From NCBI GenBank assembly GCA_024693715.1, contig JAILKS010000066.1, positions 1 to 64,000 on the forward strand: a stretch of 64,000 nucleotides of DNA, given 5' to 3'. Origin of the DNA: Treponema sp. GTDB lineage: Bacteria > Spirochaetota > Spirochaetia > Treponematales > Treponemataceae. The notes below the pieces were generated by a model. It searched no databases, had not been told where the DNA came from, and worked only from the letters and a program-made list of their open reading frames with translations. The position numbers and the translations under genes were made by a program. Below are positions 3,405 through 40,282 of this stretch, piece by piece (positions within the stretch are counted from its first letter, which is position 1; the number at the start of each line of letters is the position of its first letter).

Positions 3405-4100
3405 ATGGAAAATGTAGTTAGTCTGATTAATGTCGTAAAAACCTATGTGATGGGCGATAATGAAGTTCGTGCTTTACGTGGCGTAAGCTTTGACATTAAG
3501 CAGGGTGAATTTGTTTCTATCATGGGACCTTCGGGCTCCGGAAAATCAACCTGTATGAATATGATTGGCTGTCTCGACCGTCCAACTTCCGGTACTGTAA
3601 AAATAAATGGTCGTGAAACTGCAAAAATGAATGAAAAAGAGCTTTCTGTTCTTCGTAATCAGACTATTGGTTTTGTATTCCAGCAGTATCATCTTATTCC
3701 TTCGATGGATGTTCTTGAAAACGTAATGCTTCCATTGAAATATCAGAAGGTTGATAAAAATCTCCGGATTGAAAGAGCAAAAAAAGTGCTTGAAGAAGTA
3801 GGACTTAGTGAGCGTATGCATCATAAGCCGCATGAGCTTTCGGGTGGACAAAAACAAAGAGTTGCAATTGCACGTGCGATGATAACTCATCCAAAAATTT
3901 TACTTGCCGATGAACCGACAGGAGCGCTTGATTCAGAAACAGGAAAACAGGTTATGCAGATGTTCAGAAAAATCAATTCAGAACAGAATACAACCGTAAT
4001 CATCGTAACACACGACCCGGGTATCGGACAGGCAGCTCAACGATGCATAAAGATTTTAGACGGTCAGCTTGTAGATGAGCCAAAGAAAACAAAGAGGTAA
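3405..4100 (+). CDS. macB: MacB/LolD-type ABC transporter ATP-binding protein
   Basis: The 231-residue ATPase has a Walker A GPSGSGKST (residues 41-49), a Q-loop in FVFQQYHLIP, the signature LSGGQKQR, a Walker B ILLADEPTGALD and the switch His in VIIVTHD. This is the LolD/MacB subfamily that works with FtsX-type permeases to drive efflux or lipoprotein release. It lies between the adaptor and the permease, so efflux is more likely. In E. coli the ATPase and permease are one MacB chain; here they are separate genes five bases apart. Confidence 0.93.
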   Translation: MENVVSLINVVKTYVMGDNEVRALRGVSFDIKQGEFVSIMGPSGSGKSTCMNMIGCLDRPTSGTVKINGRETAKMNEKELSVLRNQTIGFVFQQYHLIPSMDVLENVMLPLKYQKVDKNLRIERAKKVLEEVGLSERMHHKPHELSGGQKQRVAIARAMITHPKILLADEPTGALDSETGKQVMQMFRKINSEQNTTVIIVTHDPGIGQAAQRCIKILDGQLVDEPKKTKR

Positions 4101-4105
4101 GGGTT

Positions 4106-5293
4106 ATGCTTGAAGATTTTATCAACGCTTTTAAAAATTTTAAGAGTAATAAAACAAGGACTTTTCTTTCTCTGCTTGGCGTTATTATCGGTGTTGCTTC
4201 TGTAATTGTAATCACAAGTCTTGGAAGCAGTTCGACAAAACAGATTGAAGATACCTTTGGAACCGCCGGCCTTGATGTTGTAAATGTCAGCACAGGATTT
4301 ATGAGCAGAAAGGGAAGTTCTTCTTCTGTTAGCTTTGATGAAAATGCAAGAACTGAATTATTTGATAATATCAAAAACATAAAAAAAATCTGGTATAAAA
4401 ACACTTTGAACGCAACCATGAGCTACGGCGAAACATCATCATCTGTAAATTGCAGTGCCGTAGAAACAGGTTATCTTGAAATGTATAATCTTGAGCTTGA
4501 AAACGGCGTGTTCTTTAATGTAACTGATAATGAAGAAGGACTTCAAAAAATAATACTCAGCCATGATACCGCCGAAAGTTATTTTCCTGCCGGCGATGCA
4601 GTTGGAAAGAATGTACTTTTAGTTGCAAGTAAAGTAACCTTTAATTTTGAAGTAATCGGCGTTTTGAAAGAACAGTCAACCGGAATGGAAAACGGAGCCG
4701 CTTTTATTCCATATGGATTTTATTCAAAAAAAATCAAGCCGAATCCTCCCGCTTCAAACGTGATGGTTCAGGCAACTTCAAGTGATGCGGCGATTAATCT
4801 TGTTACGGATATAAAAAATTATTATACAAATAAAACTGGCTCTGAATATTCGGTAAACGTCATGGGCATGCAGACAATGATAGATCAGATGAATGAAATT
4901 ACTGGTACAATGAGTATTCTTTTGAGCGCAATTGCTACTATCTCTCTTTTAGTCGGCGGAATCGGAATTATGAACATCATGATTGTAACAGTAACTGAAC
5001 GCCGCGGAGAAATCGGAATAAGAAAAGCACTTGGAGCAAGCCCTGCGGCAATAAGACAGCAGTTTTTGATTGAATCTGCAAGCATCACACTTCTTGGCGG
5101 AATCATGGGAATTATAGCTGGAATTGTAGTGAGCCTTGCCGTTGAATATGTTCAGTCAAATGCATTTATTATTAATACGGGTGCATGTATCGTAACTTTT
5201 GTTTTTTCTGTTTTTGTAGGAATTTTTTTCGGTTTAAATCCTGCCAGCCGTGCTGCAAAGTTAGATCCAGTAATTGCATTAAGCGGAGAGTAA
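4106..5293 (+). CDS. MacB-type ABC transporter permease (FtsX domain)
   Basis: The 395-residue protein has one N-terminal membrane helix within the conserved KTRTFLSLLGVIIGVASVI segment, a long extracytoplasmic MacB_PCD domain (about 45-245), and three C-terminal helices of the FtsX domain carrying the family motif RRGEIGIRKALGASPAAI. It forms the membrane part of the mechanotransmission-type ABC pump with the preceding ATPase and adaptor. GAGG precedes its start. It closes the operon; the tRNA-Ala gene follows. Confidence 0.9.
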   Translation: MLEDFINAFKNFKSNKTRTFLSLLGVIIGVASVIVITSLGSSSTKQIEDTFGTAGLDVVNVSTGFMSRKGSSSSVSFDENARTELFDNIKNIKKIWYKNTLNATMSYGETSSSVNCSAVETGYLEMYNLELENGVFFNVTDNEEGLQKIILSHDTAESYFPAGDAVGKNVLLVASKVTFNFEVIGVLKEQSTGMENGAAFIPYGFYSKKIKPNPPASNVMVQATSSDAAINLVTDIKNYYTNKTGSEYSVNVMGMQTMIDQMNEITGTMSILLSAIATISLLVGGIGIMNIMIVTVTERRGEIGIRKALGASPAAIRQQFLIESASITLLGGIMGIIAGIVVSLAVEYVQSNAFIINTGACIVTFVFSVFVGIFFGLNPASRAAKLDPVIALSGE

Positions 5294-5346
5294 AAGATTT
5301 CAGTTTATATTTTGATTACCTTTAATCTGTTTGTTTCTAAGTGCTA

Positions 5347-5375
5347 TTGAAAAAAAAATAAAAAATTGTAATAAT
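5347..5375 (+). promoter_or_regulatory. Promoter of tRNA-Ala
   Basis: TTGAAA (5347-5352) and AATAAT (5370-5375) are separated by 17 bases, with the mature tRNA 5' end about 10 bases downstream. Confidence 0.6.
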
Positions 5376-5385
5376 GTTTACGAAT

Positions 5386-5459
5386 GGGGAATTAGCTCAG
5401 TTGGCTAGAGCATCGGCTTTGCAAGCCGAGGGTCAGGGGTTCAAGCCCCCTATTCTCCA
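5386..5459 (+). tRNA. tRNA-Ala (UGC)
   Basis: A 74-nt cloverleaf: acceptor GGGGAAT pairs with ATTCTCC, the anticodon arm is TCGGC-TTTGCAA-GCCGA with anticodon TGC, and the T arm is AGGGG-TTCAAGC-CCCCT. The discriminator is A and the 3' CCA is not encoded. It stands alone, not in an rRNA operon. Confidence 0.96.
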
Positions 5460-5467
5460 TGTTTTTC

Positions 5468-5495
5468 TTGACAAATATCTAATCTGAGTGATAAT
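5468..5495 (+). promoter_or_regulatory. Promoter of the second lipoprotein gene
   Basis: A perfect TTGACA (5468-5473) and GATAAT (5490-5495), 16 bases apart, leave a leader of roughly 50 nt before the ATG at 5548. Confidence 0.65.
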
Positions 5496-5547
5496 TGAGT
5501 TTGTAGTTTCATATGAAATTATAAACTTTTTTTTTACAGGAGAATTT

Positions 5548-6066
5548 ATGAAAAAATTTATTATTGGTTTATTAACTTTAGTTATGGTGTTTGGTTTCGC
5601 AGGATGTAAAAAGGATGCAGAAGAAGATAAATGGATTGATACAGAGGTTTATTTCATTTATGAAGAATATGAAAATGATAAATGGGCATATATCGGTTTA
5701 TCTTTCACAAAACCTTCAGAAGGTGTTTATTATGACAGATGTCCATGTTTTATAAAAAAGGATTCTGGTATTACAAAATGTACACAAATGGAATATTTTG
5801 AATATGAAAATGGAGCTTTTAAAGATGGAGAGCTGGCTCCTGACAGTTATTTATTTGAATTTGAAGAAACAACAATTGAGTCTCTTACATATAATTTTCC
5901 TGATTTTTTAAAACTTGAAGGTTATTTAATAATTTGCAAAGGTGGTTTACCAGGACCGGATTACTCGTTGACTGTTCCCGAAGAGATTATTGCAAAGGAA
6001 ATCTGGACGTTTGACGATGGTTCAACGTTGACTGTTTATCAGGGATTAGATAGTCTGAATTATTAA
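5548..6066 (+). CDS. Small lipoprotein, paralogue of the one at 243
   Basis: I take the ATG at 5548 as start because AGGAG precedes it and a lipoprotein signal peptide begins there (lipobox FGFAGC, then KKDA). An in-frame start 60 bases upstream has neither. The 172-residue product matches the gene at 243 in its signal peptide and in the terminal FDDGSTLTVY, but the middle has diverged and includes a short PCF/Cys stretch. No known domain is visible. It has its own strong promoter. Confidence 0.8.
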   Translation: MKKFIIGLLTLVMVFGFAGCKKDAEEDKWIDTEVYFIYEEYENDKWAYIGLSFTKPSEGVYYDRCPCFIKKDSGITKCTQMEYFEYENGAFKDGELAPDSYLFEFEETTIESLTYNFPDFLKLEGYLIICKGGLPGPDYSLTVPEEIIAKEIWTFDDGSTLTVYQGLDSLNY

Positions 6067-6202
6067 TTCTAATCGTTTATATTTTTAATGTCTCGTTGTA
6101 AAAATCTGCTTTTTTCGCTATATTGTACTTATAAATAAAAAATGATGCTATATTAGTCGAAACTAACAAAATAAAAAGATTTTTATTCACAGGAGAATAC
6201 AT

Positions 6203-7867
6203 ATGGCAGAAGCAATGCATGCATTGGAAAAGAACCCTAAATGGCAGGGTCGTCGTGGTCCGGTTGTTCTTGTAATTATGGACGGCGTTGGATATGGAAA
6301 ATATGAAGAAGGTGACGCAGTAAAAGCAAGCCGCATGAAGTATCTTGACTGGTTTACTGCAAACTGCCCTCACACAAAGCTTAAGGCTCACGGAACTGCA
6401 GTAGGTCTTCCAAGTGATGATGATATGGGTAACTCAGAAGTTGGTCACAATGCTATGGGTTGCGGTCGTGTTTTTGCTCAGGGTGCAAAGCTTGTTGGAG
6501 AAAGTATTGCTAACGGTTCAATGTTCGCTGCAGATACATGGAAAAAACTCGTAAAAAACGTAAACGATAAAAATTCAACACTTCATTTTATTGGTCTTGT
6601 TTCTGACGGAAACGTTCATTCACACATTGATCACCTTAAAGCAATGATTACTCAGGCTTCTAAGGATGGAGTTAAAAAACTTCGTGTACACGCACTCTTA
6701 GACGGACGTGACGTAGATCCTACATCTGCCTTGAACTATATTACTCCACTCGAAGAATTCCTTGCTGGCTTTGCCGGAGTTGACTATCAGATTGCTTCTG
6801 GTGGTGGACGTATGTATATGACTATGGACCGCTACAATGCAGACTGGAGCATGGTAGAACGCGGATGGAAAGCTCACGTACTTGGTGAAGGCCGCAAGTT
6901 TGAATCTGCAACAAAAGCAATTGAAACTTATCGTGCAGAAGTTCCAGGACTTCTTGACCAGGATATGCATGAGTTCGTAATAGAAAAAGACGGAAAGCCA
7001 GTTGGAACAATCGAAGACGGTGACTCTGTTATCTACTTCAACTTCCGCGGGGATCGTGCTTTGGAAATGACACGCGCATTCGAAACACCAAAGGGTGGAG
7101 ATCTTCCATTTGACCGTGTTCGCGTTCCTTCTGTTGAATATGCCGGAATGATGGAATACGACGGAGACGCACATGTTCCAGCCCAGTACCTTGTAAACCC
7201 ACCAAGCATCGACCGCACAATGGGTGAATATCTTACAAAAACTGGTGTAAAGCTTTTAGCAATTTCTGAAACACAGAAGTACGGACACGTAACATACTTC
7301 TTCAACGGAAACAAGCAGGGTAAGTTTGACGAAAAACTCGAAGATTATATCGAAGTTCCATCAGACGTAGTTCCATTCGAACAGCGCCCATGGATGAAGT
7401 GTGCAGAAATTACAGACAAAGTAATCGAAGCAATCAAGAGCGGTAAATATGACCACATCCGTTTGAACTTCCCTAATGGTGATATGGTAGGACACACTGG
7501 TGTATTCAATGCAGTTGTTTGTTCTATGGAAGGAATGGATTTGCAGCTTGGACGCCTTAAGGCAGCAATCGATGAAGCAGGCGGTATCCTCTGTCTTACA
7601 GCAGACCACGGAAACTCAGACGACATGTACGAACACGCAAAGGATGGCAGCGTAAAGAAAGATGCAGATGGCGAACCAAAGGCAAAAACATCTCACTCGC
7701 TCAACCCAGTTCCTGGAATCATCTACGACCCTGAATACAAAGGCGAATATGACAATACAAAATTAAACGAAGGACTTGGAATCAGCTCATGGCCTTCAAC
7801 ATTGATGACACTCATGGGTTATGTTCCTCCAGCAGATTACGACAAGAGCATTATCAACCTTAAATAA
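6203..7867 (+). CDS. gpmI: 2,3-bisphosphoglycerate-independent phosphoglycerate mutase
   Basis: Interconverts 3- and 2-phosphoglycerate in glycolysis, using a phosphoserine and two Mn2+. Seen: the metal-binding MDGVGYG near the N-terminus, the catalytic Ser in GNSEVGHNAMGCGR, LLDGRDVDP, GRMYMTMDR, FRGDRA, NFPNGDMVGHTG and the metal-binding TADHGNSDD. The length (554) is typical of the spirochete/clostridial type. AGGAG precedes the ATG. It stands alone between a lipoprotein and the DUF3791 cassette. It uses more C-ending codons than its neighbours, as expected for a highly expressed glycolytic gene. Confidence 0.97.
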   Translation: MAEAMHALEKNPKWQGRRGPVVLVIMDGVGYGKYEEGDAVKASRMKYLDWFTANCPHTKLKAHGTAVGLPSDDDMGNSEVGHNAMGCGRVFAQGAKLVGESIANGSMFAADTWKKLVKNVNDKNSTLHFIGLVSDGNVHSHIDHLKAMITQASKDGVKKLRVHALLDGRDVDPTSALNYITPLEEFLAGFAGVDYQIASGGGRMYMTMDRYNADWSMVERGWKAHVLGEGRKFESATKAIETYRAEVPGLLDQDMHEFVIEKDGKPVGTIEDGDSVIYFNFRGDRALEMTRAFETPKGGDLPFDRVRVPSVEYAGMMEYDGDAHVPAQYLVNPPSIDRTMGEYLTKTGVKLLAISETQKYGHVTYFFNGNKQGKFDEKLEDYIEVPSDVVPFEQRPWMKCAEITDKVIEAIKSGKYDHIRLNFPNGDMVGHTGVFNAVVCSMEGMDLQLGRLKAAIDEAGGILCLTADHGNSDDMYEHAKDGSVKKDADGEPKAKTSHSLNPVPGIIYDPEYKGEYDNTKLNEGLGISSWPSTLMTLMGYVPPADYDKSIINLK

Positions 7868-7921
7868 TCAAAACGTGCGGTAATCTGTATCGTATGATAT
7901 AATATCTGTGAGGAATAACCA

Positions 7922-8140
7922 ATGAGCGAAGCTGAACAGATTTTATTTATGCAGATTCGTATTTTACGCATGGTCTCGGAAAAGTGTGGGCTTAGTCTGA
8001 AGCAGGCTGCCCGGCTTTTCGATACATATAATGTTTTGCAATTTATTCGCGAAGGTTTTGGAATTTTTCATGTAGAAGGTGATGAAGCAGTTTTTGAAGA
8101 AGTTAGAGGATATTTAAAAGCCAAAGGAGCAACATTATGA
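7922..8140 (+). CDS. DUF3791-family small protein, first gene of a putative ADP-ribosyltransferase cassette
   Basis: A 72-residue, mostly helical protein. The pattern of a leading helix, then LSLKQAARLFDTYNVLQFIREGF, HVEGDEAVFEEVRGYL fits DUF3791, a small family usually found beside DUF3990 genes. GAGG precedes the start and a TATAAT box lies at 7898-7903. Its end overlaps the start of the next gene by four bases (ATGA-type overlap), implying translational coupling. By analogy with toxin-antitoxin layouts it could be a regulator or antitoxin; this is inference. Confidence 0.75.
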   Translation: MSEAEQILFMQIRILRMVSEKCGLSLKQAARLFDTYNVLQFIREGFGIFHVEGDEAVFEEVRGYLKAKGATL

Positions 8141-8712
8141 AACAACTTGAAAAAGGTATGGTGTTGTATCATGGAAGTTTTTGCATCGTTGAAAATCCTG
8201 ACTTAAAAAAATGTGCTGCGTTTAAAGATTTTGGGCGTGGATTTTATCTTACAACTTCAAAAGAACAGGCAAAATCTTTCGCAAAAATCTCTACAACAAA
8301 GGCCAAATCCAGAGGGGATGTTCCTGCTAGCGAAAAATCCGGGTATATTTCAGCTTTCAAAGTTACAGATATTGATGAATTAAACGTATTTACTTTTCAG
8401 AATGCAGGTGTTGACTGGCTTCATTGTGTTGTTTCGCATAGAAAAGAGGGAACTTTCCCGGATGTTCATAAAAAAATGCAGGATTATGATGTTGTTTCAG
8501 GTAAGATTGCTAATAATGATACCAATACTACGATTGTTGCATATATGGGAAATGTATTTGGTCCTATAGGAAGCGAAAAGGCAGATGAAATGTGTATAAG
8601 TCTTTTGTTACCGGAACGTCTTGAAGATCAGTTTTGTTTCAGAACCCAAAGAGCAATTTCTAAACTTGAGTTTTTAAAAAGTGAAAAGGTTTCGCTGGAT
8701 AAAGAGAGGTAA
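8137..8712 (+). CDS. DUF3990 protein, probable ADP-ribosyltransferase-fold enzyme
   Basis: The 191-residue protein begins with LYHGS (His12) and continues to FGRGFYLTTS (Tyr37), the first two elements of the H-Y-E type ADP-ribosyltransferase core as seen in DUF3990. The C-terminal QFCFRTQRAISKLEFL (about 165-180) is the conserved DUF3990 end, where the third active-site strand would lie; a catalytic Glu is not obvious there, as Gln165 follows Asp164. There is no signal peptide, so the target would be cytosolic. It is flanked by DUF3791 and a 70-residue partner. ADP-ribosylating activity is inferred, not shown. Confidence 0.75.
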   Translation: MKQLEKGMVLYHGSFCIVENPDLKKCAAFKDFGRGFYLTTSKEQAKSFAKISTTKAKSRGDVPASEKSGYISAFKVTDIDELNVFTFQNAGVDWLHCVVSHRKEGTFPDVHKKMQDYDVVSGKIANNDTNTTIVAYMGNVFGPIGSEKADEMCISLLLPERLEDQFCFRTQRAISKLEFLKSEKVSLDKER

Positions 8713-8714
8713 TT

Positions 8715-8927
8715 ATGGCAAATGAAAAAACTTTATTTGCGATGGATTTAACGGTTTTAATGGCTGTTGAACAGCTTTCTAAAGAAACAAAGCAACCTCT
8801 TGAAAAAATACTTTTAGCTTTTATGGAATCTGATGCTGCAAAAATGCTATATGATGATTCAACCAAGTTATGGTGGGATGGACCTTCGGCAACTGCACAA
8901 GAGTTTAAAAATCGTTCAGGGAGTTAG
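8715..8927 (+). CDS. Small protein with KLWWDGPS motif, third gene of the DUF3791/DUF3990 cassette
   Basis: A 70-residue, probably helical protein starting two bases after the DUF3990 stop, with AGG before its ATG. The stretch DAAKMLYDDSTKLWWDGPSA is distinctive; I recall similar small proteins beside DUF3990 genes in gut bacteria, but give it no family name. The order and spacing show one operon. It could be the cognate antitoxin, a substrate or an adaptor. Confidence 0.7.
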   Translation: MANEKTLFAMDLTVLMAVEQLSKETKQPLEKILLAFMESDAAKMLYDDSTKLWWDGPSATAQEFKNRSGS

Positions 8928-8936
8928 GTTTTTAAT

Positions 8937-9806
8937 ATGAAAAAAATCATAATCATTACAATCATTTTTATCTGCATGGTGGGATGTGGGATTGCGCTGT
9001 TTTCTCAGGGAAGGGGGAGCGCGAGTGATGAGATTTCGTTGAAAGCGGAAAAAACAGAGGCAAAAATAAAAATCAATAAAGACGGAAAGGATATTGTTTC
9101 GCGGTTTAGTGTGCCTGATGGATTTATTCGCGTTGAATATGATAAGGATTCGTTTGCAGAATATCTTCGTCATTATCCTTTAAAAAAAATTGGCTCTCCG
9201 GTAAAGCTTTATGATGGACGTAAGAAAAGTAATCAGGTGCATGTTTCTGTTTTTGATATGCCGCTTTTAAAAGAGGATTTGATTCAGTGTGCAGATGCGG
9301 TTATAAAACTTCGTGCCGAATATCTTTATGCACAAAAACGTTATGATGAAATAAGCTTTCATATTACAAACGGGATGGAAGTTCCGTTCAGCCGGTATGC
9401 CAAAGGGGAACGCGTGATTGTAAAAGGAAATAATACATCGTGGAAATCTGGCTACAAAGAAGGTTACGACCGAGATGTGTTTGAATCATATTTAAAATTT
9501 ATTTATATGTATGCGGGAACTTATTCGCTTTCGGTTGAATCACAAAAAGCTGCAATTTTTAAACTTGAACCCGGAAACTTTTTTATTTACGGTGGAAGCC
9601 CGGGGCATGTTGTTTTAGTCCTGGATGTTGCAGAAAACCCTGTTACAAAAAAGAAAATCATGCTTCTTGGTCAGAGCTATATGCCATCCCAGGAATTTCA
9701 TGTTTTAAAAAGTTTTGAAGATATAAGCCCCTGGTATTACGTAAACGACGAACCTCTTTTCACCCCCGAATGGCATTTTGAGCGTGGGAGTTTGAAGAAG
9801 TTTTAA
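8937..9806 (+). CDS. DUF4846-family lipoprotein
   Basis: The 289-residue protein has a lipoprotein signal peptide (MKKIIIITIIFICMVGCG). The mature part fits DUF4846: DGFIRVEYDKDSFAEYLRHY, PLKKIGSPVKLYDG, then YVFESYLKF-like and GGSPGHVVLVLDVAE near residue 225, ending FTPEWHFERGSL. The family is uncharacterised and often extracytoplasmic. It starts nine bases after the small cassette gene, but nothing else links it to that cassette. Confidence 0.75.
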   Translation: MKKIIIITIIFICMVGCGIALFSQGRGSASDEISLKAEKTEAKIKINKDGKDIVSRFSVPDGFIRVEYDKDSFAEYLRHYPLKKIGSPVKLYDGRKKSNQVHVSVFDMPLLKEDLIQCADAVIKLRAEYLYAQKRYDEISFHITNGMEVPFSRYAKGERVIVKGNNTSWKSGYKEGYDRDVFESYLKFIYMYAGTYSLSVESQKAAIFKLEPGNFFIYGGSPGHVVLVLDVAENPVTKKKIMLLGQSYMPSQEFHVLKSFEDISPWYYVNDEPLFTPEWHFERGSLKKF

Positions 9807-39043: not shown

Positions 39044-39955
39044 ATGAAAAGTAAAAATCCGATTGCAGATAAAATCTATACTGCTGATCCTGCGCCGATG
39101 GTTTATGGCGACACTCTTTATCTTTATACAACTCATGATGAAGATGAACTTATAAATGATTTTTATACGATGTTTGACTGGAGATGTTATTCAACGAAAG
39201 ATATGGTCCATTGGACAGATCATGGAAAAATTTTCTCGCTTGATGATATTTCCTGGGCAGAAGACCGTGCATGGGCTCCTCAGGCGATTGAGCGAAACGG
39301 TAAATTCTATCTTTATTGTCCTGTTCATAAAAAAGACGGCGGAATGTCCATTGCAGTAGGCGTTTCAGACAGCCCTACAGGTCCTTTTAAAGATATAGGA
39401 CATCCTCTTGTTGATGAACCAGACTGGAATGATATAGATCCTACAGTTTTTATTGATGATGACGGTCAGGCATATTTATATTTTGGTAATCCTGAATTGA
39501 GATATGTGCTTTTAAATGAGGATATGGTTTCTTACAATGAAAAGGTTGGAATCGTAAAAATACCTATGACAGTTGAAGCTTTCGGTAAAGGCGGACACAA
39601 TACGGGAACTTCTTATGGTGAGGGTCCGTGGTTCTATAAGCGCAATAATCTTTATTACATGGTTTATGCAGCCTTTGCAGAAGGAGAAAAACGTAATGAA
39701 CATCTTGCTTATTCGACATCAAAATCTCCGACCGGTCCATGGGTTTACGGTGGTGTATTGATGGAAGAAGGGCCTTGTTTTACAAATCATCCTGGAATAG
39801 CAGATTTTAAGAATCATTCTTATTTATTTTATCATACAGATGAACTTCCTGGGGGAAGCCTGTTCCATCGCTCGGTATGTGTAGCAGAATTTAAATATAA
39901 TGATGACGGTTCTATAAATACAATCGAAAAATGCGATGGGGTAGAAGAAGTATAA
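39044..39955 (+). CDS. Glycoside hydrolase family 43 enzyme
   Basis: The 303-residue cytosolic enzyme is a GH43 propeller with YTADPAPMVYGDTLYLYTTH (base Asp), DWNDIDPTVFIDDDG (second Asp) and TSYGEGPWFYKRNNLYYMVY (acid Glu). It should cleave xylose or arabinose from short imported xylan fragments. It is a paralogue of the gene at 20596, but its gene neighbours differ. AAAGGA precedes the ATG. Confidence 0.9.
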   Translation: MKSKNPIADKIYTADPAPMVYGDTLYLYTTHDEDELINDFYTMFDWRCYSTKDMVHWTDHGKIFSLDDISWAEDRAWAPQAIERNGKFYLYCPVHKKDGGMSIAVGVSDSPTGPFKDIGHPLVDEPDWNDIDPTVFIDDDGQAYLYFGNPELRYVLLNEDMVSYNEKVGIVKIPMTVEAFGKGGHNTGTSYGEGPWFYKRNNLYYMVYAAFAEGEKRNEHLAYSTSKSPTGPWVYGGVLMEEGPCFTNHPGIADFKNHSYLFYHTDELPGGSLFHRSVCVAEFKYNDDGSINTIEKCDGVEEV

Positions 39956-39959
39956 ATTG

Positions 39960-40043
39960 TTCCCTTTCGAGTCCATAGATTTTTTGTTAAAAAAAAAGAC
40001 ATCCAGAAAAACTGGATGTCAAATTTAGCGGGGGATGGGCTCG
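39960..40043. repeat. First copy of an 84-bp direct repeat containing a tRNA-fMet tail and its terminator
   Basis: These 84 bases match 40144-40227 at an offset of 184 bases with two differences (G/A in the AT spacer, G/A in the tRNA part). The copy holds TTCGAGTCCAT, the terminator hairpin and the last 18 bases of the tRNA 3' end (40026-40043), after which similarity ends. It is not a whole tRNA gene. Confidence 0.85.
39989..40020 (-). terminator. Duplicate copy of the tRNA terminator hairpin
   Basis: Minus-strand GACATCCAG-TTTTT-CTGGATGTC then nine T, identical to the hairpin at 40182-40204. It would be a second stop point for transcripts that escape the first. Confidence 0.75.
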
Positions 40044-40143
40044 TCTTTCAGTCGCAGACATCGTGTCTGCTCCTTACAGACCGCTTCCACTCACTTCCGG
40101 CGACGTCGTATCGCCTCATCCTCCCTGTCCGGTCGGCGTTCGT
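40044..40143. other. GC-rich palindromic insert between the two 84-bp repeats
   Basis: About 100 bases markedly richer in G+C than the surroundings. It contains GCAGACA-TCG-TGTCTGC (40054-40070), a seven-pair stem with a three-base loop, and GGCGA...TCGCC (about 40099-40115). No coding signal is convincing. Its composition and structure suggest a repeated element or RNA, not a gene. Confidence 0.6.
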
Positions 40144-40227
40144 TTCCCTTTCGAGTCCATAGATTTTTTATTAAAAAAAAAGACATCCAGAAAAACTGGA
40201 TGTCAAATTTAGCGGGGGATGGACTCG
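40144..40227. repeat. Second copy of the 84-bp direct repeat
   Basis: Holds the working terminator and the 3' end of the intact tRNA-fMet. Within it TTCGAGTCCAT (40150-40160) is the exact inverse of the tRNA T-loop ATGGACTCGAA (40219-40229), so the terminator lies inside an 80-base inverted repeat. Confidence 0.85.
40173..40204 (-). terminator. Intrinsic terminator of tRNA-fMet
   Basis: Minus-strand GACATCCAG-TTTTT-CTGGATGTC (40182-40204) followed by nine T, five bases after the tRNA 3' end. Confidence 0.9.
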
Positions 40228-40282
40228 AACCACCGGCCTTCAGGTTATGAGCCTGACGAGCTGCCAACTGCTCTACCCCGCG
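40210..40282 (-). tRNA. Initiator tRNA-fMet (CAU)
   Basis: A 73-nt cloverleaf with anticodon CAT in TCAGG-CTCATAA-CCTGA and T arm GGTGG-TTCGAGT-CCATC. The first acceptor position cannot pair (C1 opposite U72), and the D arm GCAGTTGGCAGCTCG resembles bacterial initiators, so it is fMet rather than elongator Met. Pair 29-41 is A-U instead of the usual G-C. No CCA is encoded. Confidence 0.92.

Follow-up and report, generated by a model that had tools for sequence, protein, structure and literature searches.

What has placed a second copy of the tRNA-fMet tail, preceded by a GC-rich palindromic stretch, behind the initiator tRNA gene of a Treponema genome? The locus lies in the window, i.e. the whole stretch of 64,000 nt that was analysed (assembly GCA_024693715.1, contig JAILKS010000066.1), and a sequence-only reading had proposed either the footprint of a small mobile or repeated element that targets the tRNA tail, or a dispersed structured repeat. 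The tRNA-Met(CAT) gene is found at positions 40210–40282 on the minus strand (ARAGORN; Rfam tRNA, RF00005, 61.5 bits). A direct repeat of 84 nt, at 39960–40043 and 40144–40227, shows a spacing of 184 and an identity of 82/84, in agreement with the repeated tRNA 3′ end and terminator, differing at two positions, that the sequence-only reading described. The GC-rich stretch with two hairpins that it saw between the copies is also confirmed: the GC content is 60%, compared with 31–43% in both flanks, and the hairpins are situated at 40054–40070 (GCAGAC-ATCGT-GTCTGC) and 40099–40115 (GGCGACGTCGTATCGCC). A fold with RNA parameters gives z = −2.97, with 1 of 200 shuffles equally good.

Followed along the tRNA (40282 to 40210) and onward, all on the minus strand, the order is tail1, terminator 1, inv1, E, tail2, terminator 2 and inv2, past which lies the stop of a GH43-like gene at 39955. 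tail1 (40210–40227, CGAGTCCATCCCCCGCTA) extends from C56 of the T-loop to the 3′ end of the functional tRNA, and the repeated unit begins here. Terminator 1 (40173–40204) consists of the hairpin GACATCCAGTTTTTCTGGATGTC (40182–40204) and a T tract, and inv1 (40150–40160, minus-strand ATGGACTCGAA) repeats the T-loop and the T-stem 3′ half in inverted orientation. E (40044–40149) is a GC-rich multi-hairpin element, termed type A, with an R1 match at 40043–40124 (77.1 bits); it comprises an H1 region, the hairpin H2 (GGCGATACGACGTCGCC, 40099–40115; helix 1 of the family), the P4 helix (helix 2 of the family) and the hairpin H3. P4 (40043–40081) pairs GTCT at 40043–40046 with AGAC at 40078–40081 (plus strand) and encloses H3 (40054–40070), which matches the family signature. 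tail2 (40026–40043, CGAGCCCATCCCCCGCTA) is a copy of the tRNA tail with one change, terminator 2 (39989–40020; hairpin 39998–40020 and T tract) is a copy of terminator 1 with 98% identity, and inv2 (39966–39976) is a second inverted T-loop copy with no E copy after it, like the distal end of many arrays. The inverted T-loop sequence (TTCGAGTCCAT, at 40150–40160 and 39966–39976), which had been noticed on the other side of the terminator, is present beyond each of the two terminators and inside each 84-bp copy. Each 84-bp copy is a module of tail, terminator and inverted T-loop, and E is situated between two such modules.

Type-A units occur three times in this genome, at tRNA-fMet in the window, at tRNA-Arg(GCG) and at the tmRNA gene. 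The same arrangement is found at other tRNA genes of the genome and, in other spirochaetes, at over 100 tRNA/tmRNA genes, which excludes chance. A simple local duplication of the tail around a fortuitous GC-rich spacer agrees with the 98% identity of the two terminator copies in the window, but it is refuted by the three type-A copies and by the covarying, phylum-wide family described below, and we give it practically no credence. The insert is neither unique in its genome nor fixed in all relatives, as the sequence-only reading would have expected of such a duplication: it is absent from many of them.

Weak matches to E in further genomes of the genus have in common the hairpin GGAGC-NNAC-ASGAN-GTNN-GCGACTG and lie behind tRNA-Gln, tRNA-Pro and tRNA-Met. 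The H3 pattern GAGCNNACASGANGTNNGCGA is present in 87 of 200 genus genomes, with no matches to a reversed control, and the signature is absent from the remaining 113. A covariance model, built on the H2-P4-H3 part only and containing no tRNA sequence, detects E in 83 of 393 Spirochaetota genomes, from 39 of 167 genera. A stricter pattern, run over all species of GTDB release 220, matches 90 stretches, all from spirochaetes with the exception of one Tannerella MAG. This sole match (L335) belongs to isolate Pcl387_bin3, the sample code Pcl387 of which is shared with a Treponema MAG, and it is probably a binning error or contamination. None of the viral contigs scanned contains the strict pattern. 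Rfam, at gathering and at lax thresholds, gives no family on E and only tRNA and chance matches, and an earlier description of the repeat family was not found in a literature search. As far as could be found, this tRNA-tail repeat family of the phylum has thus not been described and has no Rfam family. The dispersed structured repeat, one of the two proposals of the sequence-only reading, is borne out by a covarying repeat at tRNA/tmRNA 3′ ends across the Spirochaetota.

The position of E relative to tRNA genes was determined for 106 loci, 100 genus pattern sites having been fetched. A tRNA gene lies 34–364 nt upstream on the same strand in 81 of these loci (0.35 expected by chance), with isotypes that include Met, Thr, Pro, Gln, Arg, Asn, Gly, Ala, Glu, Leu and Ser, and a tmRNA gene lies upstream at six further loci. 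Several of the remaining loci are situated at contig edges, or behind a tRNA-fMet 3′ half at the far end of an island. Of 20 loci fetched with the covariance model from other genera, families and classes, all 20 immediately follow a tRNA or tmRNA gene of the same strand. Of the 93 GTDB-scan matches that could be tested, 88 have a tRNA or tmRNA gene within 700 nt, at a median distance of 152 nt; the remaining five bear a tail of fMet or Pro type. Overall the family is found at more than 14 isotypes, with nearly every copy about 150 nt behind the gene and on its strand. Copies at other tRNA genes, which the sequence-only reading had suggested looking for, are therefore numerous both here and in other spirochaetes; the cultured commensal Treponema bryantii (L314 and L316), for example, is a multi-copy species. 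At four loci (L191, L195, L200 and L201), tRNA-fMet 3′ halves starting at the anticodon have an E unit behind them and no adjoining 5′ half; they appear to be the distal ends of islands that entered tRNA-fMet. L201 also contains an intact tRNA-fMet about 3.7 kb from the 3′ half, and the unit of this gene is near-identical.

Compared across loci, the repeating unit consists of a tRNA tail (T-loop to 3′ end), a terminator, an inverted T-arm copy and E. Units are single or tandem, directly behind the gene and matched to its isotype; two or three units per array are common. The unit is about 180–220 bp, non-coding and too short for a gene. The inverted copy, 9–24 nt of T-loop and T-stem 3′ half, lies past the terminator and before E, and the direct tail copy after E usually extends from T-loop position 56 to the acceptor end. 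Its start differs by isotype, being T54 in Gly and Glu and further 5′, on the 5′ side of the T-stem, in Thr and Ala. As end box the unit has the T-loop GTTCRA, in which the fourth base is C, and the ends are complementary. At each locus both the direct and the inverted copies match the local tRNA isotype. Of the 62 informative positions, at which the tails differ, the inverted copy sides with the functional upstream tail in 54 and with the downstream copy in the other 8 (p = 2e-9), and thus tail1, terminator 1 and the inverted copy belong together. An inverted T-arm remnant closes 23 of 76 arrays (shuffled control, 3.8%); past it, 12 of these arrays continue into an E-like start. The existence of the family and the anatomy of its unit are close to certain. 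Retrotransposition of RNA from a mature tRNA was rejected, as the longest inverted copies (21–24 nt) have no complement of CCA where checked by eye.

Other tRNA genes of the same genome, the tails of which were checked through fetched loci, also show duplicated tails, here around different structured inserts. Type B is found at elongator tRNA-Met (L212) and at tRNA-Glu(CTC) (L234), type C at tRNA-Arg(TCG) (L215), and tRNA-Pro(TGG) (L241) carries a type B and two type C units. Type B has the form AAKCCTAAAAC-hairpin-TTTTTTAACGGMTT, either between tail copies or in a tail array, and its stem changes from AATCC/GGATT to AAGCC/GGCTT between copies. Type C (...CCCCCTGCTNAN..GGTTGAA...TTCGGATT..AGC..GGTTC; L241 positions 1316–1640, and L215) displays a cassette-like array with a 125-bp period and boundaries at GGTTCAAATC. 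With types A, B and C, tail-based arrays are thus general in this genome, and E is one of several insert types.

The hairpins of E are supported by covariation. In a set of 41 diverse E sequences and 17 pairs, standard pairs make up 95.8% of cells and two-sided changes are found in 12 of the 17 pairs. Cells with double changes number 183 as compared with 51 in shuffles, the covariation score is 0.672 as compared with 0.168, and the signal is destroyed when the partners are slid. Helix 1 (H2) shows double changes in 5 of 6 pairs with 98.4% of cells paired, and helix 2 (P4) in 4 of 4 pairs with 93.9% paired; because H2 and P4 lie outside the search pattern, their covariation is independent evidence. 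One-sided changes are rare in the E stems (5, as opposed to 181 two-sided), and G-U occurs in only 5 of 639 pairs of the 16 main E pairs (0.8%), compared with 11% in the acceptor and T stems of tRNAs from the same loci (p = 4e-18). Minimum free energy folds likewise give 3.8% G-U in E and 9.5% in terminators. Thus, while E has covarying helices as structured non-coding RNAs do, the usual tolerance of G-U is missing. The near absence of G-U pairs points to selection on DNA palindromes, such as folded single strands or dyad sites, rather than on a transcript, and we infer that the former explains the pairing of E better.

The ortholog of the window locus in a sister species (L150, genome G049), with the same flanking genes, shows how strongly E is conserved. 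E is identical at 109 of 115 positions (95%), whereas third codon positions of the adjacent gene are 67% identical and terminator 1 with its spacer is identical at 30 of 57 (about 53%). Within each genome the two terminators are alike, 51/52 in the window and 45/53 in L150. E is thus old and constrained at this locus, while the flanking repeats are homogenised and replaced together. In 69 of 115 cases, the E of another genome that is most similar to a given copy has the same isotype (0.15 expected); given also the orthology of the window and L150, most copies are vertically inherited and moves are rare.

These observations bear on the main alternative, namely that E is of use to the host, as RNA or as DNA at tRNA 3′ ends, that it arose once and is inherited vertically, and that the copies of tail and terminator are by-products of tandem duplication or gene conversion. 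The conservation of orthologous E, the tendency of nearest neighbours to share an isotype and the spread over many families and classes all fit such an origin, as does the consideration that the direct repeats should delete E fast unless it is kept. It fits poorly with near-identical E cores at different isotypes that carry isotype-matched inverted copies, with the 113 genus genomes that are without the H3 signature, with a 198-nt unit that carries its own unrelated terminator, and with the lack of G-U, which is atypical of structured RNA. We regard this alternative as a tentative one, a serious minority view of the data; examples of roles that E might then have are 3′ processing, transcription termination, an integrase decoy, or one in replication-transcription conflict.

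Evidence for movement comes from comparisons between isotypes. E cores are 92% identical at tRNA-Gln (L093) and tRNA-Asn (L097), with L093 also resembling L095, and 91% identical at tRNA-Gln (L135) and tRNA-Arg (L159). Such cores, 90–92% identical at different isotypes in different species, have flanks that match their own tRNA each time, and thus movement between isotypes appears to happen. Filled and empty sites are also found, as the sequence-only reading had suggested comparing. With a PrsW-like neighbour gene as anchor for the orthologous fMet locus, a unit, truncated unit or remnant is present in about two thirds of the readable loci, and other species are empty, e.g. L484 and L485, where the tRNA and terminator are present and the inverted copy and E are absent. 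A filled locus (L145) and an empty one (L464) share the sequence behind the tail with 290/300 identity, and the extra 198 nt of L145 consist of a tail, a different terminator, an inverted copy and E. The upstream flanks of the two are not alike. The shared downstream sequence looks like an island docking at the fMet tail, which could have entered tail2, and the empty site of L464 could be a precise deletion between tail repeats. At L462, L468 and L470, integrase-like reading frames start about 70–140 nt behind the orthologous tRNA-fMet and the E unit is missing there, as if islands and E units exclude each other. A mobile element that uses the tRNA tail as target is therefore strongly suggested by the jumps of cores between isotypes and by the filled and empty fMet sites; no enzyme that moves it was found.

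The E unit belongs to a Spirochaetota-wide non-coding multi-hairpin family dedicated to tRNA/tmRNA 3′ ends. The reading that we prefer, with about an even chance of being correct, is that the unit is a cassette that inserts in the T-loop, restores the tail and is mobilised in trans. The unit would insert at the T-loop with its own tRNA tail and terminator, leaving the tRNA functional and displacing the old tail to the far side of E, where it forms tail2. A recombinase acting in trans would recognise the E hairpins in folded single-stranded DNA, by analogy with attC or the ends of IS200/IS605, and recombination between tail repeats would add or lose further units and homogenise the repeats. Several points sit uneasily with the cassette. 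E is so strongly conserved that use by the host seems likelier than a passive cassette; the junction, which depends on the isotype (T54, C56 or the 5′ side of the T-stem), is less tidy than a single site-specific enzyme would lead one to expect; no recombinase or transposase gene was found in or beside a unit and copies are mostly vertical; and the difference at L464 may stem from either an insertion or a deletion. A broader claim, which we put forward only tentatively, is that these units constitute a new class of mobile DNA: cassettes without an enzyme that insert at the T-loop of any tRNA/tmRNA gene with a replacement 3′ end, a terminator of their own and the T-arm of the new target in inverted form, and that may be recognised as folded single strands by a spirochaete recombinase.

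A search for the enzyme found no recombinase or transposase gene in or beside the units and no autonomous copy. Two gene-bearing stretches lie between units, in L201 (3.7 kb) and L205 (about 5.3–5.6 kb), and no recombinase is present among the open reading frames read in them. They were rejected as cargo of the unit and look like islands in or beside the array. The L205 stretch (3630–8990) holds a glycosidase-like lipoprotein, a sensor kinase and a response regulator, and splits E into left and right parts behind tRNA-fMet.

Movement of E as a REP-type palindrome by a RAYT/Y1 (IS200/IS605-like) transposase would agree with hairpins nearly free of G-U, with conserved loops, with GGAG before the H3 hairpin and with the RAYT-like genes that are present in some E-positive genomes. 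However, Y1_Tnp does not track E, being found in 33 of 83 E-positive genomes and 164 of 393 genomes overall (p = 0.71), and none of 20 Y1 transposase regions is flanked by E, a single model match being about 2 kb away. This explanation is very improbable.

An integron integrase shows a closer association. IntI exceeds the cut-off in 52 of 393 genomes, and 31 of the 52 carry E (odds ratio 8.2, p = 5e-11). The association persists outside the genus (17/36 versus 28/307, p = 8e-8); within the genus it is not significant (p = 0.29), and thus it may largely reflect phylogeny. E might then be the attC of a chromosomal integron, with IntI inserting cassettes at T-loops because GTTCRA resembles GTTRRRY. 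The co-occurrence, the cassette-like anatomy with R''/R'-like inverted ends and the known chromosomal integrons of Treponema (PMC3607928) speak for this. Against it, no E was found beside intI in the integron genomes sampled (20 regions per side of intI), and the resolved arrays beside intI carry canonical attC, e.g. TAACATTCGCTTAACCTGCA...TGAAGCGGGTGTTA. The T-loop GTTC also does not fit GTTR, and the genome of the window, with three E copies, has no IntI over the cut-off; the only proteins that pass the Pfam cut-off there are XerC/XerD-like ones and a single integrase of phage type, 397 aa long. We therefore consider an integron origin improbable. Arrays with canonical attC downstream of intI, in the same direction, are seen in several Treponema genomes (L434–L437, L439, L441 and L442). 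Under the preferred cassette reading, XerC/XerD, a lost or trans-acting IntI, or an unknown recombinase are possible movers of E.

The E family explains duplicated tRNA tails and terminators in spirochaetes that would otherwise be taken for prophage scars. It raises the questions of what enzyme acts on the hairpins, whether tRNAs are protected against islands by the arrays, and how E stays conserved when the direct repeats on either side should delete it. If the units are indeed a new class of mobile DNA, tRNA 3′ ends would be swapped and homogenised through such arrays.

Among known systems, Rfam RNA families share with E a conserved multi-helix structure and strong covariation; E differs in matching none of them above threshold and in its near lack of G-U. 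Integron attC sites are also folded hairpin DNA with complementary end boxes and tandem units, found in many of the same genomes, and an attC cassette likewise starts inside one end box and finishes with a structured site. E differs in that the canonical AAC/GTT boxes (RYYYAAC / GTTRRRY) and a cassette open reading frame are absent and the site is a tRNA T-loop; attC lies in a cassette array by intI, which E does not in the regions sampled. REP, ERIC and the Rickettsia palindromic elements are short non-coding dispersed palindromic repeats without a gene of their own. E is likewise short, non-coding, palindromic, dispersed and geneless, but differs from REP/BIME and other palindromic repeats in its location almost only behind tRNA/tmRNA genes, its target-matched direct and inverted flanks and its lack of association with Y1. 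The 3′ ends of tRNA genes are classic docking sites of mobile DNA, and islands, phages, satellites and tycheposons that integrate there target the 3′ part of the tRNA, which they restore, and a copy of the tail stays behind at their far end. The E unit is also found at the tRNA 3′ part with a restored tail and a far-end tail copy. However, it is about 180–220 bp and non-coding, has no integrase, and carries its own terminator and an inverted T-arm copy, and in the E family many isotypes and tmRNA share one family of elements.
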